The notes beneath the pieces were generated by a model. That model was given only the letters and a program-made list of their open reading frames with translations. It ran no database searches and was not told where the DNA came from. A program made the translations under genes and the position numbers. This document shows positions 13,534-38,040 of a stretch of DNA of 44,230 nucleotides, one piece after another. The DNA is from Neoroseomonas soli. Its GTDB lineage: Bacteria; Pseudomonadota; Alphaproteobacteria; Acetobacterales; Acetobacteraceae. Location of the stretch: the NCBI RefSeq assembly GCF_018129065.1, contig NZ_JAAEDM010000038.1:1-44230 (forward strand), written 5' to 3'. Positions within the stretch are counted from its first letter, which is position 1; every line of letters begins with the position of its first letter.

Positions 13534-13625
13534 CCGGAGAGGGGCTTTGCCCCCCTCCGGGCCTCCCCCCACCAAAGGCCGAAAGGCCTTTGGAAACCGT
13601 GAGATTCAATCGGGGGGTTCGGGAG
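13534..13625 (+). repeat. Double-hairpin dispersed repeat, family 1, copy A
   Basis: Stem 1 is CCGGAGAGGGGC (13534-13545) / GCCCCCCTCCGG (13549-13560), loop TTT, with one mismatch. Stem 2 is CCAAAGGCC (13572-13580) / GGCCTTTGG (13585-13593), perfect, with a GAAA tetraloop. A conserved tail follows (GGAAACCG, then TTCAATCGGG and TTCGGG). Copies B and C at 37820-38040 share the whole layout. It sits between the convergent patatin and tauD-like genes, so a bidirectional terminator role fits. Confidence 0.8.
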
Positions 13626-13685
13626 GGGGCAGGATGCGCCTTTCGCGCAGGGGCCGCGCGTAGGCCTCTCCCGTCGCTCGCCGCC

Positions 13686-14570
13686 CTATGCCGCCGCCTG
13701 CTCAAGCGTGGGTGCCACGTCCTGCAGCGTCACGCGCCGCATGTCGCGGGGGTAGGTGCTGTCCTCGAAGGGCCGCGCGCGGTGCAGGGTGCAGCGGTTG
13801 TCCCACACCACCAGGTCGTTCTGCGTCCAGCGATGGCTGTGGACGAACTCCCGCTGGGTCGCGAATTCCGTCAGGTCGCGGATCATGGCCATCCCTTCCG
13901 GCACCGGCATGCCCTCGACGCGCCCGATGTGGGAGGAGAGGTAGATCGACACCCGCCCCGATCCCGGATGCCGGCGCACCATGCGCTGCGGCACCGGGGC
14001 GAAGGCCTTCTTCTCCTCGGGCGTGTATTCGTCGAAGCCGAGCTGCGCGCGCGAGTAGATCAGCGAGTGCCAGGCCACGAGATCCTTCAGCTTCGCCTTG
14101 GCCTTGTCCGGCAGCGCGTCCCAGGCCGCGCGCATGTCGGCGAATTCGGTCTCGCCGCCTTCGGGCGGGATCACCCGCGCGTGCAGCATGGAATACATCG
14201 CCGGCGTCGGCTTGAATGACGAATCCGAGTGCCAGAGCCGGTTGCCGAGGGCGAACATCCGCCGCCGGTCGTCCGCGGCGAGCAGCTTCCCGTCCGTGTC
14301 GAGGTTGGAGATGTCGTTCATCTCCTGGTGCTTGAGCCGGTGCTTGTGCGCGTCCACCGTGCCGCGCGTGGGTTCGAGCGTGCCGAGCTGCCGGCCGAAA
14401 TCCATCTGCTGGTCGTCGTCGAGCGCCTGGCCGGGGAAGACGAGCACCGCGTACTGGTCCATGGCGCGATGGATCTCTTCCGCGATGCCCGGGGGCAGGG
14501 GTTGGCGGAGGTCCACGCCCGTCGCCTCGGCGACGAATAGCGGGTGCAAGGGCCTGAGCGTGAGCGGCAT
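13686..14570 (-). CDS. TauD/TfdA family Fe(II)/2-oxoglutarate-dependent dioxygenase
   Basis: 294 aa from the ATG at 14570, which has a strong GGAGG 8 bp upstream. The 2-His-1-carboxylate iron site is LWHSDSSFK (His114, Asp116) and TLHRARPF (His263); Arg275 in YPRDMRRVTL should bind 2-oxoglutarate. Length and the FxRQLGTLEP segment fit the TfdA/TauD family, whose members cleave taurine, alkyl sulfates or aryloxyacetates. The WVDNRCTLHRA-like stretch points to the TfdA side (2,4-D or related ethers), but specificity is uncertain. Transcribed alone, with two tandem leader hairpins annotated separately. Confidence 0.87.
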   Translation of the reverse strand: MPLTLRPLHPLFVAEATGVDLRQPLPPGIAEEIHRAMDQYAVLVFPGQALDDDQQMDFGRQLGTLEPTRGTVDAHKHRLKHQEMNDISNLDTDGKLLAADDRRRMFALGNRLWHSDSSFKPTPAMYSMLHARVIPPEGGETEFADMRAAWDALPDKAKAKLKDLVAWHSLIYSRAQLGFDEYTPEEKKAFAPVPQRMVRRHPGSGRVSIYLSSHIGRVEGMPVPEGMAMIRDLTEFATQREFVHSHRWTQNDLVVWDNRCTLHRARPFEDSTYPRDMRRVTLQDVAPTLEQAAA

Positions 14571-14587
14571 GGCGGTTTCCTCCAACC

Positions 14588-14632
14588 AGCCCGGTCCCGG
14601 TCGGCCGGGCTTTTGGGGCGAAGCGTCGCCCC
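14588..14632 (-). promoter_or_regulatory. Tandem hairpins in the 5' leader of the TauD/TfdA gene
   Basis: On the minus strand, stem GGGGCGA / TCGCCCC (14615-14632, 4-nt loop) is followed by AAAA and then stem AGCCCGG / CCGGGCT (14588-14611, 10-nt loop). The second stem ends about 5 nt before the ribosome-binding site. The arrangement could gate translation. On the plus strand the second stem is followed by TTTT, like an intrinsic terminator, but no plus-strand gene precedes it. Confidence 0.35.
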
Positions 14633-14782
14633 GGCCGGGGAGGGGGGTCAAGATGGGCCGCGCGACGGCCCGCAGTTGCAGCGAGGATTTCGCAGGACAT
14701 CGTGGCACCGGCCCCCGTCCCTGCGCGACAATGCACGGGCCCGGAACGGTCCGGGCGCGCGAAACGCGACTGGAGGTGGCCC

Positions 14783-15289
14783 ATGGAAGGCGGATGCGGC
14801 TGCGGGCGGCTGCGCTACCGGGTGGAAGGCGCGCCGCTGATCGTCCATGCCTGCCATTGCACCTGGTGCCAGCGGGAGACGGGCACGGTGCATGCGCTCA
14901 ATGCCCTCTATGAGGCAGACCATGTCGTCCATACGGCCGGGGAGCCCGAGATCGTCTACACGCCCTCGGCCAGCGGCCGGGGGCAGCTGATCGCGCGCTG
15001 CCCGGCCTGCAAGGTGGCGATCTGGAGCAACTATGCGCAGGCCGGTCCCGCCGTCCGCTTCGTGCGGGTCGGCACGCTGGACACGCCCGGGCGTTGTCCG
15101 CCGGACATCCACATCTACACCTCCACCAAGCTGCCCTGGGTGGTGCTGCCGCCGGGCGCAAAGGCGGTCGCGGAATTCTACGACGTCGCCGCCGTCTGGC
15201 CTGCCGGAAGCCGCGATCGGGTCCGGGCCATGCGGCAGCGCCTGCGCGAGCAGGCGGCGGCGCCCGATCCCGCCGACCCCGGTAGTTGA
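14783..15289 (+). CDS. GFA (glutathione-dependent formaldehyde-activating/CENP-V) domain protein
   Basis: 168 aa from the ATG at 14783, preceded by CTGGAGGTGG. Zinc ligands of the GFA fold are in place: CGC at Cys5/Cys7, CHCTWC at Cys24/26/29 and CPAC at Cys73/76. The family was named for S-hydroxymethylglutathione synthase, but most members have no proven activity. This one carries an extra C-terminal tail (about residues 120-168) without known motifs. Transcribed alone and convergent with ahpD across a 10-bp-stem hairpin. Confidence 0.87.
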   Translation: MEGGCGCGRLRYRVEGAPLIVHACHCTWCQRETGTVHALNALYEADHVVHTAGEPEIVYTPSASGRGQLIARCPACKVAIWSNYAQAGPAVRFVRVGTLDTPGRCPPDIHIYTSTKLPWVVLPPGAKAVAEFYDVAAVWPAGSRDRVRAMRQRLREQAAAPDPADPGS

Positions 15290-15313
15290 GGGAGCGGGGG
15301 GGGCGGAACGACA

Positions 15314-15338
15314 GATGGCGGCCACAGGGGCCGCCATC
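15314..15338. terminator. Bidirectional terminator-like hairpin between GFA gene and ahpD
   Basis: Perfect 10-bp stem GATGGCGGCC (15314-15323) / GGCCGCCATC (15329-15338), loop ACAGG, between two convergent stop codons. No T-run flanks it. Placement and stability are the evidence. Confidence 0.55.
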
Positions 15339-15366
15339 CGATAGTCTCGATGCCGGGGTGCCGGGC

Positions 15367-15903
15367 TCAGGCCGCGGCGGCCAGCGCGTCCTCCGCATCC
15401 AGCACGCCGGCGACGGCATGCACCACGGCGGCGATGCGGACGGCAGCCTGGACGGCTTCCTTCGAGAGGCCGCCATGGAGGACGACCTTCTCATGCGACT
15501 CCATGCACATGCCGCAGCCGTTGATGGCGGAGACGGCGAGCGACCAGAGCTCGAAATCCACCTTCTCCACGCCCGGCTTCGCCATGACGTTCATGCGCAG
15601 CTTCGCCGGCAGGTTGACGTAGTCGCCGCCGACCAGGTGCGTGAAGCGGTAATAGACGTTGTTCATGCCCATGATGGCGGCCGCGGCCTTGGCGGCGCCG
15701 AGCGCTTCGGGGGAGAGCTTCGGGCCGAACTCCGCCAGGATGGCGCGCGTCACCTCGGCATTGCGGGAGGCGATAGCGCTGGCGATGAATGTGCCGGCAA
15801 GCTGCTGCTGGGTCAGCACCGGCTCCGTGGCCAGCGAGCCGAGGTTCAGCTTCAGGTCCTTGGCGTGTTCCGGCAGGCGGGCGCGCAGGGCTTCGAGGGA
15901 CAT
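15367..15903 (-). CDS. ahpD: Alkyl hydroperoxidase/adaptor AhpD (carboxymuconolactone decarboxylase family)
   Basis: 178 aa from the ATG at 15903. The CMD-fold redox site is C130-G-M-C133-M-E-S-H137, with Glu118 in DFELW. These positions coincide with Cys130, Cys133, His137 and Glu118 of Mycobacterium tuberculosis AhpD, which has 177 aa. In that organism AhpD is reduced by lipoamide and dihydrolipoamide succinyltransferase and then reduces AhpC. The gene lies 171 bp downstream of ahpC on the same strand, separated by stable hairpins, so it is probably a partly uncoupled operon member. Confidence 0.93.
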
Positions 15904-16012
15904 GGGGGCCTCCAGTCGAGACGTGTCCCGCGGGCCCAGGGGGCCGCGCGGGACCGGGGGGTCCATGGGGGCTCACTACCCCCAATGCGCCAGGCAGGTC
16001 GGTTGACGGGCA

Positions 16013-16036
16013 CCCGTCGCGGCTATCCGCGACGGG
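16013..16036 (-). terminator. Intergenic hairpin between ahpC and ahpD
   Basis: Perfect 10-bp stem CCCGTCGCGG (16013-16022) / CCGCGACGGG (16027-16036) with a 4-nt loop. It is nested inside AGGCAGG (15992-15998) / CCTGCCT (16051-16057). A further near-perfect stem (GTCCCGCG / CGCGGGAC, about 15924-15953) lies closer to ahpD. This could attenuate or process the ahpC-ahpD transcript. Confidence 0.5.
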
Positions 16037-16074
16037 ACCCCCGTTTCGCGCCTGCCTCGCGGCGCGGGCGGCCG

Positions 16075-16650
16075 TCAGGCGGCCTTGCTGAACAGCGCGT
16101 CCGGGTTCAGGACGTCCTTGCCCTTCTCCCAGTTGCAGGGGCAGAGCTCGTCCGTCTGCAGCGCGTCGAGCACGCGCAGCACTTCCTGCGGGTTGCGGCC
16201 GACGTTCAGGCCGTTCACCGAGGCCCACTGGATCGTGCCGTCCGGGTCCACGATGAAGGTCGCGCGCAGCGGCACGCCGGCGGCCTTGTCGAGGATGCCG
16301 AGGCCCGAGGACAGCTCGCGCTTGATGTCGGCCAGCATCGGGATCGGCAGGTCGCGGATGTCGTCGTTGTGGACGCGCCAGTTCAGGTGGACGAACTCGC
16401 TGTCCGTTGAGACGCCGTAGACCACCGCGTCGCGGTCGGCGAACTCACCGGCGAGCTTGCCGAAGGCGGCGATCTCGGTCGGGCAGACGAAGGTGAAGTC
16501 CTTCGGCCAGAAGAAGACGATCTTCCACTTGCCGGCATCGGTCTGGTCGGTGATCTCGGTGAAGGACACGCCGGGGCCGCCGAGGCCCTCCTTGCCGCCC
16601 TTCACGGCGGTCAGGGCAAAGGCTGGGAACTTGTCGCCAACGGTCAGCAT
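16075..16650 (-). CDS. ahpC: Peroxiredoxin AhpC (alkyl hydroperoxide reductase subunit C)
   Basis: 191 aa from the ATG at 16650 (MLTVGDKFPAFAL), with GAGGAGCG upstream. Peroxidatic Cys56 is in DFTFVCPTEI. The C-terminal ELCPCNWEKG carries Cys170 and Cys172, the three-cysteine arrangement of mycobacterial AhpC (Cys61, 174 and 176). That arrangement, together with the downstream ahpD, says the electron donor is AhpD and not AhpF; no ahpF is present here. It reduces organic peroxides and peroxynitrite in the cytoplasm. The upstream region has two kinds of direct repeats (16689-16714 and 16754-16798) that may be regulator sites. Confidence 0.95.
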   Translation of the reverse strand: MLTVGDKFPAFALTAVKGGKEGLGGPGVSFTEITDQTDAGKWKIVFFWPKDFTFVCPTEIAAFGKLAGEFADRDAVVYGVSTDSEFVHLNWRVHNDDIRDLPIPMLADIKRELSSGLGILDKAAGVPLRATFIVDPDGTIQWASVNGLNVGRNPQEVLRVLDALQTDELCPCNWEKGKDVLNPDALFSKAA

Positions 16651-16688
16651 GGGGTCGCGCTCCTCGGGGTTGCGGGCCGGATGGCCTG

Positions 16689-16714
16689 TTGTGCGGTGCA
16701 CCTTGTGCGGTGCA
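16689..16714 (-). repeat. Two 12-bp direct repeats upstream of ahpC
   Basis: TTGTGCGGTGCA occurs at 16689-16700 and again at 16703-16714 (period 14 bp), 39-64 bp before the ahpC start. It is either a regulator-binding pair or part of the promoter/leader. No protein is encoded here. Confidence 0.45.
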
Positions 16715-16753
16715 GCAGATGCCCTCGGGGCGGGATTCTGTCCAACCGATTTC

Positions 16754-16798
16754 TTCGAAGGGTTCGATCGAGGAATTCGATTTGATCGGTTTGATCGA
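16754..16798. repeat. Five-unit array with 9-bp period upstream of ahpC
   Basis: Consecutive nonamers read TTCGAAGGG, TTCGATCGA, GGAATTCGA, TTTGATCGG, TTTGATCGA. The TTYGA core recurs in register, and the stretch is clearly poorer in GC than its surroundings. It lies 104-148 bp upstream of ahpC and just after the mlaF stop. The layout suggests cooperative binding of a regulator, but no known OxyR half-site (ATAG-N7-CTAT) is obvious. Confidence 0.5.
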
Positions 16799-16825
16799 GC
16801 GCAAGGACACGCGCGCCGAATAGTT

Positions 16826-17617
16826 CTAGCGGCGCAACTCCATCTGGATCGGGCCTTCCCGTTCCCCGCGGGCGAACTGGTCCACCAGCGGATTGCCGGT
16901 ATTGCCGAGCGCCGCCGCCGCTCCGGTCCAGACGATCTTCCCCCTGTGGATCATCGCCGCGTCGTCGCCGATGCGTCGCGCGCTCGCCATGTCGTGCGTG
17001 ATCGAGACGGCCGTCGCGCCCAGCCGCTTCACCACGTCCACGATCAGCCCGTCGATCACCGCGCCCATGATGGGGTCGAGGCCGGTGGTGGGCTCATCGA
17101 AGAAGATGATGTCGGGCTGCGCCGCGATGGCGCGCGCCAGGCCTACGCGCTTCTGCATGCCGCCCGAGAGTTCGGCCGGGGAAAGGTCGCCCACGGAGGC
17201 TGCGAGGCCCACCTGCGCCAGCACCTCCGCCGCCTTGTCGCGGGCGGCGCCGCGCGTGATGCGCTTCTGCGCCAGCAGCTTGAAGCAGACATTCTCCCAG
17301 ACGGGCAGAGAATCGAAGAGCGCGCCATTCTGGAAGAGCATGCCGATGCGGTCGTTCAACTCCTCCCGCTCGCGGCGGCCCATGGCCAGCACGTCGCGGC
17401 CGTCGATCTCGATCGTGCCGGCATCGGGCTGGATCAGGCCGAGGATGCACTTGATCGTCACCGACTTGCCGGAGCCCGACCCGCCGAGGATCACCATCCC
17501 GTGCCCGGCCCGGATGTCGAGATCCACGCCGTCCAGCACCTTCTTGTCGCCGAAGGCCTTGGAGAGGCCGCGGAGGCGGATCTTCGGAACGCCATCCACA
17601 TGCGCCTTGGTATCCAC
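16826..17617 (-). CDS. mlaF: ABC transporter ATP-binding protein MlaF (outer-membrane lipid asymmetry)
   Basis: 263 aa from a GTG at 17617 (VDTKAHVDGVPKIRLRGL), chosen because GAGGGG lies 6 bp upstream. An ATG at 17650 in frame is possible. Walker A is GGSGSGKS, the Q-loop LFQNGALFDSLPVWENV (typical of Mla/Ttg2A ATPases), signature LSGGMQKR, and Walker B IIFFDEPTTGLDP, with switch His in SITHDM. It energises phospholipid traffic between the membranes together with MlaE, which is encoded 137 bp upstream. A 42-codon ORF occupies that gap. mlaD, mlaC and mlaB are not in the window. Confidence 0.9.
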   Translation of the reverse strand: MDTKAHVDGVPKIRLRGLSKAFGDKKVLDGVDLDIRAGHGMVILGGSGSGKSVTIKCILGLIQPDAGTIEIDGRDVLAMGRREREELNDRIGMLFQNGALFDSLPVWENVCFKLLAQKRITRGAARDKAAEVLAQVGLAASVGDLSPAELSGGMQKRVGLARAIAAQPDIIFFDEPTTGLDPIMGAVIDGLIVDVVKRLGATAVSITHDMASARRIGDDAAMIHRGKIVWTGAAAALGNTGNPLVDQFARGEREGPIQMELRR

Positions 17618-17628
17618 GAAAGCGCCCC

Positions 17629-17757
17629 TCAAGCGCCGGCCGCCGCACATCCGTGCGGCTTGGCTTCGCGGTACTTGCCGCGGGCCGCGATCGCGGCCTC
17701 GGCCCGCGTCGTGGCCGCGGGCGGCATGTCGGAACCGTGTGTGATCGGCTGGGTCAT
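17629..17757 (-). CDS. Small ORF (42 aa) translationally coupled to mlaE
   Basis: The ATG overlaps the mlaE stop as ATGA (17754-17757), which is normally a sign of a real next gene. It encodes MTQPITHGSDMPPAATTRAE and 22 further residues ending KPHGCAAAGA, then stops 11 bp before the mlaF GTG. I recognise no domain. It may be a coupling leader that carries ribosomes to mlaF, a small protein, or the original N-terminus of MlaF cut off by a frameshift. Ala-rich composition gives little help. Confidence 0.35.
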   Translation of the reverse strand: MTQPITHGSDMPPAATTRAEAAIAARGKYREAKPHGCAAAGA

Positions 17758-18578
17758 TGCGCGAAGAACATCTCGGTCAGCACGTAGTCGAGCGCGAGGA
17801 TGAGGATGGAGGAGGAGACCACCGCCATCGTCGTCGCGGCACCGACGCCCTGCGCGCCGCCCTTGCTGTAGTAGCCGCACCAGCAGCCCATCAGCGTGAT
17901 GACGAAGCCGAACACGGCGGCCTTCACCAGGCCCGACACGACGTCTATCACTTCGAGGAAATCCAGCGTCGCCTTGAGGTAGCCGGCCGAATTGAAGCCG
18001 AGCTTCGTGGTGCCGATCAGCCAGCCGCCCATGACGCCGAGGATGTCGGCCACTGCGACCAGGAAGGGCAGGGCGATCACCCCCGCGAGCAGCCGCGGCG
18101 TGACGAGGTATTTCATCGGGTTGGTGGACAGCGTCGTCAGCGCGTCGATCTGGTCGGTGACGCGCATGGTGCCGATCTCGGCGGCGAAGGAGGCGCCGAT
18201 GCGCCCCGCCACCATCAGGCTCGCGATGACCGGGCCGAGTTCGCGCGTGATGGACAGGACCACCACGTTCGCCACCGCCCCTTCGGCGTTGAAGCGGACG
18301 AAGCCCGTGTAGGATTGCAGCGCCAGCACCATGCCGGTGAAGATCGCCGTCAGCGCCACCACGGGCAGCGAGAAATAGGCGATCTCGGCCAGGTGGCGCA
18401 GGAACTGCCGCGCATAGAAGGGCGGCCGCAGCAGGTGGGACAACGCCTCCAGCGCGAAAAGCACCAGCGCGCCCACTTCGCGGCAGGCCGAAAGGACGGC
18501 CCGCCCGATCGCGGCGACGGGGTTCAGCACCAGGTCCAACCGCTCAGCCCCGGATGTAGTCGCGGGCGTAGCGCGCAC
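17754..18578 (-). CDS. mlaE: MlaE-type ABC transporter permease
   Basis: 274 aa from the ATG at 18578, which overlaps alr by 35 bp. A TTG at 18539 just after the alr stop is an alternative start. The MlaE core is clear: FTGMVLALQSYTGF, the EQ-loop-like region ITRELGPVIASLMVAGRIGA followed by FAAEIGTMRVTDQIDAL, and PRLLAGVIALP, with 5-6 membrane helices. With MlaF it forms the inner-membrane core of the Mla lipid transporter, which keeps phospholipids out of the outer leaflet. Last clear member of the dnaB-alr-mlaE chain. Confidence 0.9.
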   Translation of the reverse strand: MRATPATTSGAERLDLVLNPVAAIGRAVLSACREVGALVLFALEALSHLLRPPFYARQFLRHLAEIAYFSLPVVALTAIFTGMVLALQSYTGFVRFNAEGAVANVVVLSITRELGPVIASLMVAGRIGASFAAEIGTMRVTDQIDALTTLSTNPMKYLVTPRLLAGVIALPFLVAVADILGVMGGWLIGTTKLGFNSAGYLKATLDFLEVIDVVSGLVKAAVFGFVITLMGCWCGYYSKGGAQGVGAATTMAVVSSSILILALDYVLTEMFFAQ

Positions 18579-19656
18579 CGAGGGAGGTCAGCACCTCGTA
18601 GCCGATGGTGCCCGCGCGCGCGCCCACCTCGTCCGGGCTGCAGCCGGCGCCGCCGATCAGCGTCAGGCGGTCGCCGGGGGCGATCTCCGGCAGGTCGGTC
18701 ACGTCGAAGGTCGTCAGGTCCATGGACACCCGTGCCACGAGAGGGACGGGCCTGCCACGGAAATCCGCCACGGCCTTGCCCGAGAGGCTTCTCAGGTAGC
18801 CATCCGCATAGCCCACCGCAACCGTCGCGATCCGCGTGGGGCGCGGTGCGGTCCAACTTGCCCCGTAGCCGACCGGGGTTCCGGCCGGGATCTCCCGCAC
18901 CTGGAGCACCGGCGCATCGAGCCGCGCCACCTGCCGCATCGGGTTCGGCCGGTCCGGCGTCGGATTGATGCCGTAGAGCGCGCAGCCCGGCCGCGACAGG
19001 TCCGAGGCGAAGTCCGGCCCGAGGAACATGCCGGAGGAATTGGCGAAGGACCGCCGCGCCATGGGCAGGTCCGAGCACGCTTCCGCGAAGCGTTGCGCCT
19101 GCGCCGCGTTCATCGGATGCGCCGGCTCGTCCGCGCAGGCGAGGTGCGTCATCACATAGAGAAGCTCGATTCCCGCCAGCAGCGAATGATCGGCCGAGAG
19201 CCGCGCGCGTTCCGCCGCATCCAGCCCCAGCCGCGCCATGCCGGTATCGACATGCAGGATCGCCCGCCGCGCCACGCCGGACGCCCGCGTCGCCGCCGCA
19301 TGCGCCGCGACATCGGCGAGTGAGTTCATCACCGGCACCAGCCCGGCATCGCCATCCGCGCCAGGCGGGAAGCCGCCGAGCACGGCGATCATCGGCCCGG
19401 CGCCGATCGCCGCCCGCAGCGCGATGCCTTCCTGCAACTGCGCCACGAAGAAGTGGCGGCAGCCTGCCGCGCGCAAGGCTCGCCCGACCTCGGCCGCGCC
19501 AAGGCCGTATCCATCCGCCTTCACGACTCCTGCCACCGCGCCGGGCGCGCCGCGGGCCGCGAGGTCCTTCCAGTTCGCGACGATGGCCGGCAGGTCGATG
19601 GTCAGGACCGCGCGTGTCGTGTCGGCGAAGCGTGAAGCCGGTGTGCCGTCATTCAT
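18544..19656 (-). CDS. alr: Alanine racemase
   Basis: PLP enzyme making D-alanine for peptidoglycan. 370 aa from the ATG at 19656. The PLP-binding Lys46 is in AGVVKADGYGLG. The second catalytic base is the Tyr in TPVGYGASWTAP (about 265), and the MTHLACADEPAHPMN region matches Alr. The start overlaps the dnaB stop by 8 bp, giving tight coupling. alr beside dnaB is a common order in alphaproteobacteria. Confidence 0.94.
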   Translation of the reverse strand: MNDGTPASRFADTTRAVLTIDLPAIVANWKDLAARGAPGAVAGVVKADGYGLGAAEVGRALRAAGCRHFFVAQLQEGIALRAAIGAGPMIAVLGGFPPGADGDAGLVPVMNSLADVAAHAAATRASGVARRAILHVDTGMARLGLDAAERARLSADHSLLAGIELLYVMTHLACADEPAHPMNAAQAQRFAEACSDLPMARRSFANSSGMFLGPDFASDLSRPGCALYGINPTPDRPNPMRQVARLDAPVLQVREIPAGTPVGYGASWTAPRPTRIATVAVGYADGYLRSLSGKAVADFRGRPVPLVARVSMDLTTFDVTDLPEIAPGDRLTLIGGAGCSPDEVGARAGTIGYEVLTSLGARYARDYIRG

Positions 19657-21163: not shown

Positions 21164-21201
21164 GCCGCCATTCTAGCCCGACGGCGGAGTCGCGCGCCCC
21201 C

Positions 21202-21210
21202 TGTGGATAA
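21202..21210 (-). promoter_or_regulatory. Consensus DnaA box upstream of dnaB
   Basis: Read on the minus strand the site is TTATCCACA, an exact match to the strongest DnaA box, 39 bp before the dnaB ATG. A 9-mer this AT-rich is rare in a roughly 70% GC genome. It suggests DnaA control of dnaB transcription. One box alone does not make an origin. Confidence 0.6.
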
Positions 21211-21252
21211 CGGGGATGACGGGGACGGCCGCACCCAAACCACCCCGCGCCA

Positions 21253-21307
21253 TCAGTTCCCAACGGCCAGAGAAGGGAGGGGGTCCGGGGGAGGTTCTCC
21301 TCCCCCG
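21253..21307 (-). repeat. Terminator-like dispersed repeat, family 2, copy 2
   Basis: On the minus strand: 9-bp stem CGGGGGAGG / CCTCCCCCG around AGAA (plus-strand arms 21286-21294 and 21299-21307), then GGACCCCCTCCCTTCTCTGG, then TGGGAACTGA. Block order and wording match 4426-4483. It sits downstream of cfa and upstream of dnaB, where it could end the cfa transcript. Confidence 0.6.
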
Positions 21308-21396
21308 CCCTTCCCATCGCCGCGAAACGGTTCGCCGCCGAGCGGGCAGCCCCGATCCGCGTCGGTGCGAGCCGTCGAAACGGCGATCAGCCCCTC

Positions 21397-21494
21397 CGCG
21401 TTCCGCTGTCAGGCCGAGAGCCGAGGCCGCCGCGCCGCCTCGCGTTCCGCTGTCAGGCCGAGAGCCGAGACCGCCGCGCCGCCTCGCGTTCCGC
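21397..21494. repeat. 44-bp tandem duplication across the 3' end of cfa
   Basis: Two full 44-bp units (21397-21440 and 21441-21484) differ at a single base (G/A at unit position 30). A third partial unit of 10 bp runs to 21494. The second unit contains the cfa stop codon (21453-21455), and the first contains a duplicate of it (21409-21411). 44 is not a multiple of 3, so the extra unit is non-coding 3' sequence. Confidence 0.9.
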
Positions 21495-22682: not shown

Positions 22683-22813
22683 GCTGCGTTCTCCTGGCCG
22701 GGAGGGGCACAGCATTGCAGATCATGCATCTGACAGGGAAGCCTCACATGCCGCAGTGCGGCATGGCGCCGGCGGGGCGGCGCGGCGGCCCGGCCCGAAG
22801 GGCGCGGACCGCG

Positions 22814-22842
22814 CGGCGCGGGGGCGAGGCGCGCCCCCGCGC
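22814..22842 (-). terminator. Terminator-like hairpin after rplI
   Basis: Perfect 12-bp stem GGCGCGGGGGCG (22814-22825) / CGCCCCCGCGCC (22831-22842), loop of 5, starting 9 bp past the rplI stop. No T-run. It probably marks the end of the ribosomal-protein operon. Confidence 0.55.
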
Positions 22843-22850
22843 CGGTCGGA

Positions 22851-24340: not shown

Positions 24341-24364
24341 GCCTCCCTGCCCGGAGCCCCGTCC

Positions 24365-24643: not shown

Positions 24644-24649
24644 GATCGA

Positions 24650-29047: not shown

Positions 29048-29060
29048 GGAGACGCGAGCC

Positions 29061-29801: not shown

Positions 29802-30156
29802 CGGGCCGGCCGGCCGCCCGCTTGTTGCTGATGCAGGGCGCGGCCGCGACGGGGATCGGCACGGCATATCCCCGTGACAGGGGTGTTTCGCGCAGTGCCG
29901 GCCCTTCCCGCGCCGGTCCGGCAGCGCGGCCCCAATTGCTTGCGGAGCCACGAGGTCGAAGGCCGGCGGCAGGGCGCTGCCCGCCCTGCCGGCACGGTCG
30001 CGCTCCGTCGCCGGAGCGATTTCCACAAGAGTCGAAACCGCTCCAGCCATATTTGAGCGGGCATCGTCACGCAGACAGCTGATTCCAGCCGCATGCGATC
30101 TGCTCTAGCCTCTCGCCCAACGCGGCACGCACGCCGCGACGAGGGGAGAGAAGCGC
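29802..30156 (+). other. 355-bp intergenic region with several stem-loops
   Basis: No ORF with protein character and no tRNA. Stems seen: ACGGGGAT (29849) / ATCCCCGT (29868); GCAGGGC (29969) / GCCCTGC (29983); CGCTCCG (30001) / CGGAGCG (30012) followed by ATTTCC, the best terminator candidate for fabDG; and GGAGCGATTTC (30013) / GAAACCGCTCC (30034) with one mismatch, overlapping and competing with the previous stem. The right part should hold the promoter of the downstream Bug gene, and a GAGGGGAGAG ribosome-binding site precedes its ATG. Confidence 0.5.
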
Positions 30157-31125: not shown

Positions 31126-31228
31126 CGCCCCGCGCACGGGATTGACCGCGCGCGCCCGCTCTGGGACCGTTCCTGCGACCACAAGGCGGCGCCCCGCGCA
31201 GAGCGCCCCGAGGTCTGGAGGAAACAAC

Positions 31229-32446: not shown

Positions 32447-33348
32447 GCGCGAATGTCCTGACGGTCGGCTTCGTCGGCCTCGGCGCGATGGGTGGGCCGA
32501 TGGTCGAGCGGCTGATCGCCGCCGGGCATCGCCTGCTGGTGCATGACGTCAACCAGGCCGCGCTGGCGCAGGTGGTGGCGCTGGGCGCGACCGCCATGCC
32601 CTCGCCGTCGGCGGTGGCCGATGCCGCGCCGGTCGTCTTCGTCAGCCTGCCGACGCCGGATGTGGTGCGGCAGGTGGCGCTGGGTGCCGGCGGGTTGGTC
32701 GAGGGCGCGGCGATGCGGATCTACGCCGACCTTTCGACCACCGGCGCCCGCGTGGCGCAGGAGGTGGCGGCGGGGCTGTCCGCCAATGGCGTCGCGGTGC
32801 TGGATGCGCCGGTTTCCGGCGGCGTGGCGGGGGCGAAGGCGGGGACGCTGTCGGTCATGGCCTCCGGCGACCGCGCGGCCTTCGAGCAGGTGCGCAGCCT
32901 GCTCGAGACCATCGGCCGCAACACCATCCATGTCGGGGACGGGGTGGGGCAGGGGCAGACGCTCAAGCTGGTCAACAACCTGATCGCCGCCACGGTCTGG
33001 GCGGCGACGGCCGAGGCGATGGTGATGGGTGCCAAGGCCGGGCTCGACCCCGCGGTGATGCATTCCGTGGTGGCCAAGAGCAGCGGCCGGTCCTTCTCCA
33101 CCGAGGTCTTCATGCCCAAGGCGGTGCTGGAACGGACCTTCGACTTCGGCTTCCGGCTGGAACTGATGCGCAAGGACGTGCGCCTCGCCCTGGCGGAGGC
33201 GGAGGCCCTCGGCACCACCATGCTGACCTGCACCACGGCCAAGCAGCTCTACGACCACGCGCTGGCCCATGGCGGGGAGGGGCAGGACGTCACCGCCCTG
33301 ATCCGGCTGCTGGAATCCTGGGGCGGGGCGGAGGTTTCGGCGAAGTAG
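32443..33348 (+). CDS. NAD(P)-dependent 3-hydroxyisobutyrate/tartronate-semialdehyde reductase family oxidoreductase
   Basis: 301 aa from a GTG in the GTGA overlap with the upstream binding-protein gene. Beta-hydroxyacid dehydrogenase family: Rossmann GFVGLGAMGGPMVERL, APVSGGVAGAKAGTL for substrate binding, and catalytic Lys in GQTLKLVNNLIAATV, then LRKD-like LELMRKDVRLAL near the C-terminus. The family oxidises or reduces short hydroxyacids. Coupling to a periplasmic binding protein suggests the ligand or a product is a hydroxyacid. A strong terminator stem follows at 33354. Confidence 0.88.
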   Translation: MSANVLTVGFVGLGAMGGPMVERLIAAGHRLLVHDVNQAALAQVVALGATAMPSPSAVADAAPVVFVSLPTPDVVRQVALGAGGLVEGAAMRIYADLSTTGARVAQEVAAGLSANGVAVLDAPVSGGVAGAKAGTLSVMASGDRAAFEQVRSLLETIGRNTIHVGDGVGQGQTLKLVNNLIAATVWAATAEAMVMGAKAGLDPAVMHSVVAKSSGRSFSTEVFMPKAVLERTFDFGFRLELMRKDVRLALAEAEALGTTMLTCTTAKQLYDHALAHGGEGQDVTALIRLLESWGGAEVSAK

Positions 33349-33353
33349 CCCGC

Positions 33354-33384
33354 CCGGCGCCGGCTCTCCGCGAGTCGGCGCCGG
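33354..33384 (+). terminator. Strong terminator-like hairpin after the dehydrogenase gene
   Basis: 13-bp stem CCGGCGCCGGCTC (33354-33366) / GAGTCGGCGCCGG (33372-33384) with one G-T pair and a 5-nt loop, beginning 5 bp past the stop. No T-run. Confidence 0.6.
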
Positions 33385-33418
33385 ACCCCGCCTGCTTCAA
33401 GGTGTTGTGTGCCGATGG

Positions 33419-33446
33419 TTGCTGCGCCTACCACAAATGGTAGAAA
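33419..33446 (+). promoter_or_regulatory. Possible nrdB promoter with overlapping 16-bp palindrome
   Basis: TTGCTG (33419-33424), 16-bp spacer, TAGAAA (33441-33446). Inside lies CTACCA-CAAA-TGGTAG (33428-33443), a perfect inverted repeat of the size expected for a NrdR box, though not its consensus. A repressor there would block the promoter. Confidence 0.4.
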
Positions 33447-33479
33447 CGCCGACCACGACAGCAGGGATGGGGCAGCAAC

Positions 33480-34532
33480 ATGGCTGACGGAATCGCGACC
33501 GACGAATTGCCGGTGAAGTTCGACCTTCTCACCGCCAACCCGGTCTACAAGCCGTTCCGCTACCCCTGGGCCTATGACGCCTGGCTGACCCAGCAGCGCA
33601 TCCACTGGCTGCCGGAGGAAGTCCCGCTCGCGGACGACGTGAAGGACTGGCAGAAGACCCTGACCGAGGCCGAGCGGAACCTGCTGACGCAGATCTTCCG
33701 CTTCTTCACCCAGGCCGATGTCGAGGTGAACAACTGCTACATGAAGCACTATTCCCAGGTGTTCAAGCCGACGGAAGTGCTGATGATGCTGTCCGCCTTC
33801 TCGAACATCGAGACAGTTCATATTGCCGCTTATTCCCACCTTCTCGACACGGTGGGCATGCCGGAAGCGGAGTACACGGCCTTCCTCAAGTACAAGGAGA
33901 TGAAGGACAAGTACGACTACATGCATAACTTCACGGTGGAGAACAAGACGGAGATCGCCAAGACCCTGGCGGCCTTCGGTGCCTTCACCGAGGGGCTGCA
34001 GCTCTTCGCCTCCTTCGCGATCCTCATGAACTTCCCGCGCTTCAACAAGATGAAGGGGATGGGCCAGATCATCTCCTGGTCGGTGCGCGACGAGACGCTG
34101 CACTGCCTGTCCGTCATCCGCCTCTTCCGCACCTTCGTGCAGGAGAACCCGGAGATCTGGACGGAGGAGCTGCGCCGCGACCTCTATCTGATCTGCGCGA
34201 CCATCGTGGACCACGAGGACGCCTTCATCGACCTCGCCTTCGAACTGGGCGGCGTGCAGGGCCTGGATGCGGCGCAGACCAAGCAGTACATCCGCTTCAT
34301 CGCCGACCGCCGGCTGCAGCAGCTTGGCCTCGAGCCGATCTACCACATCGAGAAGAACCCGCTGCCCTGGCTCGACGAGATGCTGAACGCGGTCGAGCAC
34401 ACCAACTTCTTCGAGAACCGCGCGACGGAGTATTCCAAGGCCAGCACCGCCGGCACCTGGGAAGAAGCCTTCGCGGATTCCGTCTTCTCCTCCCCCCAGC
34501 CGGAAGGCGCGATCGAGGGCGTGCGTCACTGA
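33480..34532 (+). CDS. nrdB: Class Ia ribonucleotide reductase beta subunit
   Basis: Holds the di-iron/tyrosyl radical that starts ribonucleotide reduction on NrdA. 350 aa. Metal ligands: Asp in FFTQADVEVNN, Glu and His in NIETVHIAAY, Glu in FTEGLQLFASF, and Glu/His in SVRDETLHC. The radical Tyr is present at the right spacing (E-x6-Y in ETVHIAAY), so this is the canonical tyrosyl type and not a class Ic variant. nrdA is not adjacent on either side in the window. It has its own likely promoter and a 9-bp-stem terminator. Confidence 0.95.
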   Translation: MADGIATDELPVKFDLLTANPVYKPFRYPWAYDAWLTQQRIHWLPEEVPLADDVKDWQKTLTEAERNLLTQIFRFFTQADVEVNNCYMKHYSQVFKPTEVLMMLSAFSNIETVHIAAYSHLLDTVGMPEAEYTAFLKYKEMKDKYDYMHNFTVENKTEIAKTLAAFGAFTEGLQLFASFAILMNFPRFNKMKGMGQIISWSVRDETLHCLSVIRLFRTFVQENPEIWTEELRRDLYLICATIVDHEDAFIDLAFELGGVQGLDAAQTKQYIRFIADRRLQQLGLEPIYHIEKNPLPWLDEMLNAVEHTNFFENRATEYSKASTAGTWEEAFADSVFSSPQPEGAIEGVRH

Positions 34533-34539
34533 TGGTCAG

Positions 34540-34563
34540 GCGGGGCGCCCTTGCGCGCCCCGC
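34540..34563 (+). terminator. Terminator-like hairpin after nrdB
   Basis: Perfect 9-bp stem GCGGGGCGC (34540-34548) / GCGCCCCGC (34555-34563), 6-nt loop, 7 bp past the nrdB stop and before the SCO gene. Confidence 0.55.
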
Positions 34564-34589
34564 GCCGCACGGCCTATCTGCGCTGCATC

Positions 34590-35264
34590 ATGCTTCGCAC
34601 CGTTCGCCTTCTCGCCCTGGCCTTCCTCGTTCTGCTCGCGGGCGCCTGGGGGCTCGCCTGGTTCGGCCGCGAGCCCGGCGAGTCGATCGCGGATGCCTTC
34701 CTGCGCCGCATCGCCGCCATCACCGGCACGGAGATGCCCGCGCCGTCGGCCGGCGGCATCCAGCTTGCCCAGGGCGTTTCGCTCGGCGGGCCCTTCGCCC
34801 TGGTCGACCATACCGGCCGCACCGTGACCGAGCGCGACTACGCCGGCCGGCTGATGCTGATCTATTTCGGCTATACCTATTGCCCGGACGTCTGCCCGAC
34901 CGAGCTCGGCACCATGGCCGCCGCGCTCGATGCCATGGGCGCGGCTGGCGAGCGTGTGACGCCGGTCTTCATCACCGTCGATCCGGAACGCGACACCCAG
35001 GCCGGCATGGCCGACTACGTCTCCCGCTTCCATCCGCGCTTGGTGGGGCTGAGGGGCAGCGCCGAGCAGACCGCGCAGGTCGCGCGCGCCTTCCGCGTCT
35101 ATTACGCGAAGGTGCAGCCGCGCGACACAACCGAGTACCTGATGGATCACTCGTCGTTCATCTACCTGGTCGGGCCGGACGGCCGGGTGCGCAGCCTGTT
35201 CCGCCCCGAGACCCCGCCCGAGTCCATCGCCGCCGCGGTGGCCGCACAGCTTCGCGCCCTGTGA
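34590..35264 (+). CDS. SCO1/SenC family copper chaperone (thioredoxin-fold)
   Basis: 224 aa from the ATG at 34590. N-terminal membrane anchor LLALAFLVLLAGAWGLAWF. Copper/redox site YCPDVCP (Cys98, Cys102) with the distant His187 in LMDHSSFIYLVGPDG, exactly the Sco ligand set. It delivers copper to the CuA site of cytochrome c oxidase in the periplasm. No oxidase genes are nearby. It starts 57 bp after nrdB, across a hairpin. Confidence 0.92.
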   Translation: MLRTVRLLALAFLVLLAGAWGLAWFGREPGESIADAFLRRIAAITGTEMPAPSAGGIQLAQGVSLGGPFALVDHTGRTVTERDYAGRLMLIYFGYTYCPDVCPTELGTMAAALDAMGAAGERVTPVFITVDPERDTQAGMADYVSRFHPRLVGLRGSAEQTAQVARAFRVYYAKVQPRDTTEYLMDHSSFIYLVGPDGRVRSLFRPETPPESIAAAVAAQLRAL

Positions 35265-35363
35265 GACACGGGGTTCCGCAATACAGGCGCGGCTTGTATG
35301 TTCGCGCCGCCGGAATCGTTAAACCGTCAAAAGTACGGCCGGGCGCAGCGGCGGAGGGCCTGA

Positions 35364-35651
35364 ATGACTGAGGACGACAACGAGGGAGGCGGTGCTCCGG
35401 AAGCCGGCCGCGGTGCCGCGCCGGCGCCTCGGCATACGCGCCGCCTGTCGGACAAGATCCTCATCGCCTTCCATCACGCCTGCGACCAGGCGGATTTCGA
35501 GGTGGCGGAGGAACTGCTCCGTATCCTCGAGATGATGCTGACCCGCCGTCCGGCCTCGCCCGACGCCAACCGGCGCAAGAACCTCGAGAGCCTGGTGGCG
35601 GCGCATGAGCGGCTCTGGCTGCTGCGCCACCCCGAGGTGAAGGACCAGTAG
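35364..35651 (+). CDS. Conserved small hypothetical protein (95 aa)
   Basis: Function not recognised. The N-terminal 27 residues are acidic and then Ala/Pro-rich (probably disordered). The rest, RLSDKILIAFHHACDQADFE followed by VAEELLRILEMML and NLESLVAAHERLWLLRHPE, should form two or three amphipathic helices. It resembles short proteins I recall downstream of other genes in Rhodospirillales, with no named domain. The 99-bp upstream gap holds an ATACA-N9-TGTAT inverted repeat (35281-35299) and GTTAAAC, so it may have its own promoter. Confidence 0.72.
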   Translation: MTEDDNEGGGAPEAGRGAAPAPRHTRRLSDKILIAFHHACDQADFEVAEELLRILEMMLTRRPASPDANRRKNLESLVAAHERLWLLRHPEVKDQ

Positions 35652-35669
35652 GTCCGGGAACAGATCCCG

Positions 35670-35689
35670 ATCAGGTGGAATCACCTGAT
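35670..35689. terminator. Bidirectional terminator-like hairpin
   Basis: Perfect 8-bp stem ATCAGGTG (35670-35677) / CACCTGAT (35682-35689), loop GAAT, between the convergent 95-aa gene and the TrmN6-like gene. It is AT-richer than other stems here. Confidence 0.5.
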
Positions 35690-35756
35690 TGGGTGACGAT
35701 GCTCGCAAGGCGGTGGACTGAAGCGATTTCCCTGAGCGGGGCGAACGGAAGCCGCG

Positions 35757-36491
35757 CTACGCCGTCGTCTCCAGCGCGGCGGCGTGGCGCAGCACCGCCT
35801 CCGCGGCCGGGGTGAAGGTGCCGTCTTCCGCGTGCAGCGCCATCGGCGGCAGCAGCCGCGCCGGCCCGCGGCCACCCTTGCGGCCGCGCAGCAGGACGCG
35901 CTTCGCCGCCTCGCCGGCGCGCGGCGCAAGCGGCAGCATCACCAACGACCCGCAGCCCGCCGACCGCAGCGCGGCGACCCCGGCATCGAATCGCGCGGCG
36001 GGCAGCACCAGGTTCGCCGTGCCGCCCGTGCTCAGCGCCGCGGCGAGGAACCGCGCCCAGGCATCGAGTCCCGCGCCGTGCTCATGCGTCGCCGCGCGCC
36101 GCACCGCGCCCGGCGGCGGCGTGCCACCCGGCCAATAGGGCGGGTTGGCGAAGGCGTGGTCGCAGGGGCCGAGCGCACGCGCCAGCGCCGCATCCGCGAC
36201 ATCGCCCTCCGTTATCTCCGCCGCGACGCCGTTGGACGCCGCGTTCTCCCGGGCCAGCGCGGCCATGGCCGGTTCCCGCTCGACCGCGACGACCGCCACC
36301 CCCGGCACGCGCGCCGCGAGGCACAGGAAGGCCGCGCCGCTGCCGCAGCCGGCCTCCAGCACACGCTGCCCCGGCCGCACCGGCACGAAGGCGGCCAGCA
36401 GCAGCGCATCCAGCCCGGCGCGGAATCCCTTCACCGGCTGGCGCAGCCGCACCCGGCCGCCGAGCAGCAGATCCTCGGTCGTATCGCTCAC
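35757..36491 (-). CDS. TrmN6-like methyltransferase (tRNA1(Val) adenine-37 N6 type)
   Basis: 244 aa from a GTG at 36491 (SDTTEDLLLGGRVRLRQPVK). SAM motif I is VLEAGCGSGAAFLCLAA, then VAVEREPAMAALA. The catalytic FANPPYWPGG (about 114-123) is the NPPY motif of adenine-N6 methylases, and QPVKGFRAGLDALLLAAF is the YfiC/TrmN6 opening. It would methylate A37 of tRNA(Val) or a related RNA. The start overlaps the DUF2007 stop as GTGA. Divergent polyprenyl synthase next door is a frequent alphaproteobacterial arrangement. Confidence 0.85.
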   Translation of the reverse strand: MSDTTEDLLLGGRVRLRQPVKGFRAGLDALLLAAFVPVRPGQRVLEAGCGSGAAFLCLAARVPGVAVVAVEREPAMAALARENAASNGVAAEITEGDVADAALARALGPCDHAFANPPYWPGGTPPPGAVRRAATHEHGAGLDAWARFLAAALSTGGTANLVLPAARFDAGVAALRSAGCGSLVMLPLAPRAGEAAKRVLLRGRKGGRGPARLLPPMALHAEDGTFTPAAEAVLRHAAALETTA

Positions 36492-36700
36492 GCCGTCGCC
36501 TCGCCGGCCTCCGTCAGCACGGCGCGTGCGCGCTGCTCGTCGTCGGTCGCCACCGCCAGGCGTCGCGGAAAGGCGCCGATCCCGCCTTCGACCGCGCTGA
36601 TATGGGCGTCGAGCACGACGCTCCCAATTCCCGCATCGGCGAGCAGCGCACGCAGGAAGGACAGCCGGACCGGGTCAGTGGTGGTGGCGACGATGCGCAT
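36488..36700 (-). CDS. DUF2007 domain protein (putative signal-transducing protein)
   Basis: 70 aa from the ATG at 36700 (MRIVATTTDPVRLSFLRALL). A single DUF2007 domain: DPVRLSFLRALLADAGI, VVLDAHISAVEGGIGAFPRR, then LAVATDDEQRARAVL. This is a small ferredoxin-like fold with proposed regulatory binding. Overlaps the TrmN6-like start by 4 bp, so the pair is cotranscribed. The biochemical role is unknown. Confidence 0.85.
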   Translation of the reverse strand: MRIVATTTDPVRLSFLRALLADAGIGSVVLDAHISAVEGGIGAFPRRLAVATDDEQRARAVLTEAGEATA

Positions 36701-36787
36701 TCCGCTAGCGAATCCCTTGTTTTTCCGGCGCTTGCCGCCCCGGCGGGCCGCCACTATGGTGCGCGCCGCATCAGGAGAAGAGCAAGG

Positions 36788-37813
36788 GTGAGCGCTTCCG
36801 CCACACCGCTTGTCGCCCCGCCGGCGCCGCGCGGGGAGGACGCGCTGAGCGCGTTGATATCGCTGCTGCGCGACGATATCGAGGCCTGCAACCGCCTCAT
36901 CGTCCAGCACATGCAGAGCGATGTCGCGCTGATCCCGCAACTCGCGGCGCATATCGTCGCCGCCGGCGGCAAGCGGCTGCGTCCGCTGCTGACGCTCGCC
37001 GCCGCGCGGCTCTGCGGGTATCGCGGGGAGCGGCATGTCGGCCTCGCCGCCTGCGTGGAGTTCATCCACACCGCGACGCTGCTGCACGACGACGTGGTGG
37101 ACGAAAGCGCGCTGCGCCGCGGCCAGGCCTCCGCTAATGCGCTGTGGGGCAACAAGGCCTCGGTGCTCGTCGGCGACTTCCTGTTCTCGCGCGCCTTCCA
37201 GTTGATGGTCGAGGACGGCTCGCTCGAGGTGCTGCGCATCCTTTCTTCCGCCTCCGTGACCATCGCGGAAGGCGAGGTGCTGCAACTCATGACGCAGAAC
37301 GACACCACGACGACCGAGGACCAGTACCTCAAGGTCATCGAGGGCAAGACCGCCGCGCTCTTCGCCGCGGCGACCGAGGTGGGCGCGGTGGTGGCCGAGC
37401 AGCCGGCGGCCGCGCAGGCCGCGATGCGGGATTTCGGCATGGCGCTCGGCGTCGCCTTCCAACTGGTGGACGACGCGCTCGACTACAGCGCGGACCAGCA
37501 GGCGCTCGGCAAGACCGTGGGCGACGATTTCCGCGAGGGGAAGATCACCCTGCCGGTGCTCTTCGCCTTCGCCCGCGGGGACGAGGCCGAACGCAGCTTC
37601 TGGCGCCGCACGCTGGAAGAGCGCGAGCAGAAGGACAGCGATCTCCCCGAGGCGCTGGCACTGATGCGCAAGCATGGCGCGTTTGCCGACACCATTGCCC
37701 GGGCCCGGATCTACGGGGACCAGGCGCTGGCGGCACTCGCCGCTTTCCCGGACAACGCGGAGAAGCGGGCGCTGGCGGCGGTGGTGGATTTCGTGATCGA
37801 GCGGGCGCGGTAG
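36788..37813 (+). CDS. ispB: Long-chain polyprenyl diphosphate synthase (quinone side chain)
   Basis: 341 aa from a GTG at 36788 with AGGAG about 12 bp upstream. The first Asp-rich motif is ATLLHDDVVDES and the second is LVDDALDY, with GGKRLRPLL for IPP binding and GKTVGDDFREGKITLPVL near the C-terminus. Ala in place of an aromatic residue five positions before the first motif fits long (C40-C50) products. It makes the ubiquinone tail; decaprenyl is likely in this group, so ddsA would be an equal name. Followed after 6 bp by family-1 repeat B. Confidence 0.9.
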   Translation: MSASATPLVAPPAPRGEDALSALISLLRDDIEACNRLIVQHMQSDVALIPQLAAHIVAAGGKRLRPLLTLAAARLCGYRGERHVGLAACVEFIHTATLLHDDVVDESALRRGQASANALWGNKASVLVGDFLFSRAFQLMVEDGSLEVLRILSSASVTIAEGEVLQLMTQNDTTTTEDQYLKVIEGKTAALFAAATEVGAVVAEQPAAAQAAMRDFGMALGVAFQLVDDALDYSADQQALGKTVGDDFREGKITLPVLFAFARGDEAERSFWRRTLEEREQKDSDLPEALALMRKHGAFADTIARARIYGDQALAALAAFPDNAEKRALAAVVDFVIERAR

Positions 37814-37819
37814 GGCGCG

Positions 37820-37910
37820 CCGGAGAGGGGCGCCGCCCCTCTCCGGACCTCACCCCGCCAAAGGCCGAAGGGCCTTTGGAAACCGATTTCAATCGGGCTG
37901 TTCGGGGAGG
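37820..37910 (+). repeat. Double-hairpin dispersed repeat, family 1, copy B
   Basis: Stem 1 CCGGAGAGGGGC (37820-37831) / GCCCCTCTCCGG (37835-37846), perfect 12 bp, loop GCC. Stem 2 CCAAAGGCC (37858-37866) / GGCCTTTGG (37871-37879), loop GAAG. Stem 3 CCGAT-TTCA-ATCGG (37883-37896). Then GGGCTGTTCGGGGAGG. It faces copy C, and ATCGGGCTGTTCG (37892-37904) can pair with CGAACAGCCCGAT (37957-37969). Confidence 0.85.
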
Positions 37911-37954
37911 CGCGTCGCGGGCGCGACCTTGATCGCGTGCGGGCCATGCCCCTC

Positions 37955-38040
37955 TGCGAACAGCCCGATCAATTTCCGGGTTCAAAGGGCCCTTCGGCCC
38001 TTTGCGGGAGGGGTCTCGGGGAGGGCAGGGCCCTCCCCGG
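37955..38040 (-). repeat. Double-hairpin dispersed repeat, family 1, copy C (inverted)
   Basis: Read on the minus strand: stem 1 CGGGGAGGGC / GCCCTCCCCG (arms 38030-38039 and 38017-38026), then stem 2 CAAAGGGCC / GGCCCTTTG (38004-37996 and 37991-37983) with loop GAAG, then CCCGGAAATTGATCGGGCTG. Relative to A and B, stem 2 keeps pairing through paired changes. The element encodes the last residues and the stop codon of the O-antigen ligase. Confidence 0.85.

Follow-up and report, generated by a model that had tools for sequence, protein, structure and literature searches.

What are the double-hairpin elements that occur three times in the 44,230-nt stretch of Neoroseomonas soli contig NZ_JAAEDM010000038.1 analysed here (the window), and what keeps their structure? 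A first-pass annotation of the window had described three copies, A, B and C, of one dispersed element, termed family 1, each with a GC stem (stem 1), a short linker, a second stem (stem 2) and a tail. The analysis showed that these modules belong to a repeat with a fixed inverted pairing, that they abut stop codons, and that stem 1 and the linker covary three ways (G.G-C, A.A-T and T.A-T). With a probability of roughly 0.6, the family is a REPIN/BIME-like non-autonomous interspersed repeat beside stop codons, whose ends would be purine-motif intrastrand triplexes. The features of family 1 in the window are given below; the cmsearch scores of 81.9, 83.3 and 74.0 bits are high by construction, as A, B and C were among the 16 training sequences of the covariance model.

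13532..13598, plus strand: module A (solitary), with stem 1, mirror linker, stem 2 and AAACC (cmsearch, 81.9 bits)
13536..13570, plus strand: predicted triplex unit of module A, GGAGAGGGG / CCCCCCTCC / CCTCCCCCC (generic mirror-hairpin scan)
13572..13593, plus strand: stem 2 of module A, CCAAAGGCC GAAA GGCCTTTGG (sequence, pair counts)
37818..37884, plus strand: module B, forming the left end of the composite with C (cmsearch, 83.3 bits)
37822..37856, plus strand: predicted triplex unit of module B, GGAGAGGGG / CCCCTCTCC / CCTCACCCC, with one A over an A-T pair (mirror-hairpin scan)
37858..37879, plus strand: stem 2 of module B, CCAAAGGCC GAAG GGCCTTTGG (sequence, pair counts)
37892..37904, plus strand: left arm of the central inverted repeat, ATCGGGCTGTTCG (sequence, composite fold)
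37957..37969, minus strand: right arm of the central inverted repeat (sequence, composite fold)
37978..38043, minus strand: module C, forming the right end of the composite with B and located, in frame, within the 3' end of open reading frame (ORF) 37969-39231 (cmsearch, 74.0 bits)
37983..38004, minus strand: stem 2 of module C, CAAAGGGCC GAAG GGCCCTTTG (sequence)
38006..38038, minus strand: predicted triplex unit of module C, GGGGAGGG / CCCTCCCC / CCCCTCCC (mirror-hairpin scan)

The three modules were located where the first-pass annotation had placed them and are real double-hairpin modules; the stem-2 pattern matched three times in the window and in none of 100 shuffles. A covariance model specific for family 1 was built from 16 copies of the own genome. 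The search of this 5.24-Mb genome returned 150 matches, 149 of them at an E-value of 2.6e-5 or better, which represents at least 149 copies; as at most 150 (own genome), 134 (relatives) or 52 (family) candidates were scored per genome, the larger copy counts are lower bounds. The search extended to congeners and to other Acetobacteraceae genera and confirmed a dispersed family, which is not restricted to the three copies of the window. The change in stem 2 between A/B and C, from which selection on pairing had been proposed, is also real. In the 150 aligned copies, 98.4% of the alignment cells in the stems were paired and the changed cells comprised 256 two-sided and 9 one-sided changes, in rows aligned to a model that leans to its own structure. 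The shuffles gave a mean of 68.9 two-sided cells with none of 500 reaching 256, and the slid controls gave 5 to 57. An excess of compensatory changes is thus present, and the view that pairing is selected holds. The structure had been said to belong to no named family, and Rfam 15 gave no match at the gathering score in the window; at E-values up to 1, three matches around B-C and five around A were all far below the gathering score. A plasmid search with 37780-38050 gave no match.

The double hairpin had been presented as a free-standing unit. Instead, the module is half of an inverted pair, with B and C as the inverted ends of a single palindromic composite of ~230 bp. A local search identified 194 matches at E-values up to 0.01, and the 170 at 3.4e-5 or better were kept. 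These 170 copies form 108 clusters, comprising 62 in plus-then-minus order, 29 with plus and 17 with minus, and no other order was present; neighbouring copies at most 500 bp apart were in plus-then-minus order in 42 of 42 pairs. The inverted doublet as the repeated unit, a trait of repetitive extragenic palindromic (REP) sequences and REPINs, is therefore found here. The DNA fold of the 233-nt B-C composite was −96.2 kcal/mol, compared to a shuffle mean of −59.0 (z −10.3). The ATCGGG...GTTCG tail described in the first-pass annotation is present as sequence; it is not a part of the module in its own right, but one arm of the 13-bp inverted repeat between B and C. Where the modules are 40 bp or more apart (43 composites), the central inverted repeat, of up to 24 bp, was longer than in all 100 shuffles in 16. 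The module spacings cluster near 0-2, 14-19, 38-51 and 77-96 bp. Module A is a singlet in which the left inner arm is kept, as judged by eye. Convergent genes as the sole cause of the pairs were rejected, as 42 of the 62 pairs lie between tandem genes.

The segment between the stems, first described as a short C-rich linker, is C-rich but is not a plain linker. The 9-10 nt that follow stem 1 repeat the 3' pyrimidine arm of stem 1 in mirror order and covary with it as a third strand, so that the structure is more than the two Watson-Crick stems originally described. Examples, written as arm, spacer and linker, include CCCCTCTCC-GGA-CCTCTCCCC, CCCTCCCC-GAGA-CCCCTCCC, CCCCCCTCC-GGG-CCTCCCCCC, TCCCTCTCC-GGT-CCTCTCCCT and TCTCCCCC-GCG-CCCCCTCT. 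In the 136 copies that were distinct among the 150 aligned, with the mirror centre chosen to favour a match, an arm C faced a linker C in 856 of 872 triads, and the 156 arm T positions were partnered by T (92), A (53), G (5) or C (6). The proportion of A or T at arm T was 93%, compared to at most 40% in 1,000 linker-exchange permutations, and 22 of 156 in a reversed-linker control. On the latter control, alternative Watson-Crick pairing between the linker and the stem-1 5' arm was rejected, and the mirror matching itself rejects a mere RNA spacer.

Because the choice of the mirror centre favoured a match, the test was repeated without it. The repeat used 225 intergenic perfect purine/pyrimidine hairpins found with the linker ignored, with a fixed 3-nt spacer and the side taken by C content only; 137 of the 225 came from the window and from loci picked as element-bearing. 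On the C-richer side, C faced C in 91% and T faced A or T in 79% (T 158, A 98, C 52, G 15), whereas the values on the other side were 42% and 36%. The 147 hairpins with C at every C position had T partners of T 131, A 80, C 0 and G 7. Fully matched arm patterns accounted for 20 of 37, against a permutation mean of 4.4 and a maximum of 9 in 5,000 permutations. In a congener, G003, 68 hairpins picked on the C positions alone gave T partners of T 56, A 38, C 5 and G 3.

The canonical triads of the antiparallel purine motif are G.G-C, A.A-T and T.A-T, whereas in the pyrimidine motif, on the top strand or in RNA, an A placed over A-T is mismatched. An A over A-T on the top strand is T.A-T on the bottom strand. 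As A as well as T is accepted over A-T, the triad rule points to the purine motif and to a DNA triplex of the strand complementary to the one that had first been folded. One subtype, with A opposite C on the top strand and a linker C (24 triads), is consistent with this, as the top-strand stem is broken there and the bottom strand has a G.T pair with G.G kept. Read on the plus strand, the unit of module A has the order R-Y-H, which on the bottom strand becomes RH-R-Y, or class I. Judged from the sequences, a class I fold of the bottom DNA strand, in the order third strand, purine, pyrimidine, is the one most likely to be conserved. The elements thus share with PIT/TM-ECO a set of three mirror and complement domains whose triads follow the purine motif.

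A general scan for a purine arm, loop, pyrimidine arm and mirrored third strand, in which no family sequence was used, recovered A, B and C in the window, together with two units of a second family.

4428..4459, plus strand: predicted second-family triplex unit, GGGGGGAG / CTCCCCCC / CCCCCCTC (mirror-hairpin scan)
21276..21306, minus strand: predicted second-family triplex unit, GGGGGAGG / CCTCCCCC / CCCCCTCC, a right-hand end with an adjoining GTTCCC inner arm (mirror-hairpin scan)

The unit at 4428-4459 ends the gene 3603-4439 (RrnaAD, Pfam), the stop codon of which lies inside the hairpin loop. The second family has other stem sequences, GAA-type loops and the inner arms CTGGGGACTGAC / CAGTTCCC, and its tips are as in family 1. 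A 44-bp head-to-tail direct repeat with 91% identity (21390-21433 and 21434-21477) was noted between the unit at 21276-21306 and the next gene.

The same scan was applied to 800 kb of G003, which comprised long contigs taken tile by tile and one 20-kb tile for the polyprenyl-synthase site. It identified 63 class I/III units, 61 of them intergenic; gene calls, made with our own codon-usage script, cover 89% of this DNA. The controls gave 11 direct repeats, one class II/IV unit and none in three Markov shuffles. Neighbouring units were in plus-then-minus order 20 times and in the reverse order once. In 80 polyprenyl-synthase neighbourhoods of GTDB genomes (437 kb), eight units were present, seven in four loci (L144, L146, L169, L170) and one in Bombella (L200); the controls were one direct repeat, one class II/IV and no Markov unit. 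In 334 kb of four other Acetobacteraceae genera, picked around known matches, 22 of 22 units were intergenic and new matched patterns (CCCTCCTC/CTCCTCCC and TCCCCCTC/CTCCCCCT) were observed, with controls of 10 direct repeats (seven in G110) and two class II/IV (both in G101). A further 60 kb of congener G010 contained two units (one called intergenic), two direct repeats and no class II/IV.

The copies had been placed immediately 3' of genes. This is correct for A and B, which start 7 nt past the stop of gene 12565-13524 and 4 nt past the stop of gene 36788-37813, respectively, but not for C, which lies inside the 3' end of ORF 37969-39231 on the minus strand. This ORF encodes an O-antigen-ligase-like protein (Pfam Wzy_C), of which roughly the final 24 residues and the stop codon come from the B-C composite. 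The element-free homologues end earlier, by ~14-19 residues (L263-L266, L272) or ~9 (L259); the C-terminal tail contributed by the composite is absent or shorter in homologues without the element. Of the 42 tandem composites of the own genome, 34 have a stop codon no more than 15 nt away, overlaps counted, and 16 have a start codon at that distance. Of all 64 tandem clusters, 40 are closer to the stop than to the start, and 15 of 19 convergent composites abut stops on both sides. In G003, clusters per intergenic region of at least 25 bp were 18 in 75 convergent, 22 in 270 tandem and 2 in 90 divergent regions.

Matches to family 1 were present in 21 of 22 congeners, at 1 to at least 134 copies, and absent from one. 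Matches were also found in 19 of 99 other Acetobacteraceae genera, with one genome each and stricter filters, and in none of 16 genomes of other families. Among the congeners (G001-G022), copy number tracks genome size or clade, with 0-6 copies in the ten of 2.6-4.1 Mb, 19 to at least 134 in all 11 of at least 5 Mb, and 51 in G004 (4.2 Mb). The own polyprenyl synthase is 88% identical to its N. eburnea counterpart. The site beside this gene holds pairs with differing stem-2 sequences in L251 and L252, a longer pair in G003 (L248), and is empty in L259 and L263-L267. A synteny test was available for the 17 of 108 own clusters that had both flanks in the G003 stretches. A strict scan found a G003 unit at 11 of these 17 sites, although some of the spans are wide and a few units may be neighbours. 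Of the six sites with no strict match, two were degraded by eye (both L076), two were empty (L077, L103) and two were ambiguous (L102:2211, L104:1521). Own elements of 231 and 195 bp occupy slots where the G003 genes lie 4 and 2 bp apart. One convergent slot was seen to hold family 1 here (L064) and family 2 in G003 (C1:339839-339986).

Two groups of known elements are similar. BoxC/PIT/TM-ECO elements, in the part of Holder et al. available to us (PMC4666352), are G/C-rich intrastrand triplex units of ~9+9+9 nt, intergenic and dispersed, in inverted pairs in some cases, with a copy number that varies widely among relatives. They fold as a triplex in vitro, their 23 TM-ECO copies in E. coli MG1655 have an "extraordinary degree of identity", and TM-ECO copies are commoner upstream than downstream of ORFs (PMC4666352, same part). 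The TM-ECO domain order given there is Y-R-RH (class II), whereas the units here are class I on the bottom strand (63 class I/III compared to one class II/IV in the 800 kb of G003). The second hairpin, the fixed inverted composite, the strong stop-codon position and the third-strand covariation further distinguish family 1 from TM-ECO as described in that text. REPINs and BIMEs, according to the parts of PMC3116915 and PMC3733652 at hand, share the inverted doublet unit, more than 100 copies, the intergenic location and the ability to fold as single-stranded DNA. Family 1 differs from the REPINs described there in having no REP-associated tyrosine transposase (RAYT), no GTAG/CGTC tag and predicted triplex tips; its doublet members as a whole were not better conserved than singlets, although the better member of each doublet was. 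Neither tag was present at either end of the module consensus, as inspected in 16 copies, and Acetobacteraceae are among the families without CGTC repeats in the accessible part of PMC3733652. Like miniature inverted-repeat transposable elements (MITEs), family 1 is short and non-coding and has terminal inverted repeats, in the form of the plus-minus composites; unlike these, it has no target-site duplication, and no parent transposon was identified in a search limited to Y1 transposases. On this comparison, TM-ECO/BoxC/PIT would be the closest in structure and REPINs the closest in organisation, with family 1 a variant that appears to combine both. Among the literature matches listed, which included few subscription journals, nothing was found on such repeats in Acetobacteraceae or on third-strand covariation in bacteria. 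We take Lichenicola cladoniae to be a member of the Acetobacteraceae. Many REPs are given for this species in the portion of PMC12306157 that was available.

Under the REPIN/BIME-like reading, the unit would be the inverted module pair, in many cases around a central inverted repeat. From the outside inward, each module would consist of a hairpin whose bottom-strand purine arm takes a purine-rich third strand by reverse-Hoogsteen pairing, followed by the second hairpin. The bottom strand would fold when single-stranded, during lagging-strand replication or supercoil relief, and the folded ends may be recognised by a trans-acting DNA-processing activity that copies or moves the element. Copies would persist beside stop codons because they do the least harm there. 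Insertion is consistent with the inverted-pair unit, the variable copy number, the C-terminal tail and the operon-like spacing at the empty sites. Of the three options first offered (a terminator, mRNA 3' protection or a small non-autonomous mobile element), the mobile element is judged best and the terminator is weak. A more specific proposal, which we put forward tentatively, is that family 1 is a new non-autonomous mobile DNA of the Acetobacteraceae, the ends of which would be recognised as single-stranded class I triplexes of the bottom strand by a non-RAYT enzyme.

Several observations weigh against mobility. A Y1 transposase (PF01797) was not found in the own genome and was matched in one of 35 genomes of the genus, the own included, in a search whose control gave matches in 5 of 14 known genomes. 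There is thus no known mobiliser, and a RAYT-mobilised REP was rejected. No target-site duplication was found in the 62 composites, where the mean length of the longest shared flank word was 4.10 compared to 4.07 when permuted (p 0.45). By model rank, the 124 doublet members were not better conserved than the 46 singlets (p 0.25), whereas the better member of each doublet was (p 0.019). The two empty G003 slots could be gains or losses, and positions are often common with G003 (units at 11 of the 17 syntenic sites, compared to 42 clusters in the 435 intergenic regions); such sharing fits a host function or old insertions no less than mobility. In G003 the clusters are enriched in convergent regions (p 4e-4 relative to tandem regions), as for terminators. 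The direct-repeat control of G110 is not negligible (7 against 9 units), and the related E. coli motif had no in vivo dimethyl sulfate protection in the part of PMC4666352 available.

The main rival, which we consider unlikely, is a bidirectional transcription boundary, in which the RNA hairpins of a module terminate the transcript of the preceding gene or protect its 3' end, and the pair serves both strands. Such a boundary would account for the stop codons within 15 nt of most tandem composites and on both sides of most convergent ones, for the enrichment of convergent and the avoidance of divergent regions in G003, and for sites that are often kept among congeners, once with a different family in the slot (L064 and G003 C1:339839). 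It is harder to reconcile with the 42 of 62 composites that have tandem genes on either side, so that one of their halves faces in the wrong direction, with the two elements at slots where G003 genes are 2 and 4 bp apart, and with the ten small congeners that have 0-6 copies. The GC hairpin of an intrinsic terminator is followed by a T run, whereas AAACC or AACCC follows stem 2 here. An intrinsic terminator is weak because no T run follows either stem and a terminator scan of 37000-39000, a range that includes B and C and leaves A outside, gave nothing at B or C. An RNA reading also leaves the A over A-T pairs unexplained, and E. coli PIT motifs had no promoter or terminator activity according to work cited in the accessible part of PMC4666352.

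The remaining alternatives concern the third strand itself. It is improbable that the mirror symmetry serves a bottom-strand G-quadruplex rather than a triplex. G runs are present on the bottom strand, e.g., GGGAGGGG..GGGGAGGG, and the same competitor is discussed for TM-ECO by Holder et al. (PMC4666352, in the part available), but four runs of at least three G in the two purine strands occurred in only 26 of 140 rule-obeying hairpins, and neither the mirrored interruptions nor the paired pyrimidine arm is needed for a quadruplex. An RNA pyrimidine-motif triple helix (U.A-U, C+.G-C) in the mRNA 3' end would find a fitting order, R-Y-H, with matching C and T on the top strand. This is hardly probable either, as A over A-T would be a mismatch in 53 of 156, 38 of 102 and 80 of 218 triads, and the top-strand A opposite C (24 triads) breaks the stem where the other strand has a G.T pair. 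The C+.G-C triad moreover needs acid, which counts against such a helix. The least probable alternative, which we regard as very improbable, is a neutral by-product, in which a few chance mirror subtypes were amplified and the third strand is unselected. The copies are related by descent and the cells are therefore not independent; the pattern-level permutation nevertheless gave 20 of 37 compared to at most 9, and the rule is common to two families of different sequence and to several genera. Copying between repeats gives direct or inverted repeats and not mirror repeats, which counts against this alternative, so that a position-wise third-strand match with A and T exchangeable over A-T is what selection for a purine-motif triplex would be expected to leave.

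Bacterial genomes commonly contain intrastrand triplex motifs, and in the part of PMC4666352 available to us the E. coli in vivo footprinting was negative and no function was assigned. With family 1, the question of a triplex in vivo becomes testable by substitution, as a change of linker T to A should be harmless and a change of T to C should not. The fold could be selected either by the spread of the element or by a use in the host. If the element is what we propose, the three-way covariation would be, to our knowledge, the first comparative evidence of an intrastrand triplex kept by bacteria, and if the elements move, the enzyme that recognises them would be new.

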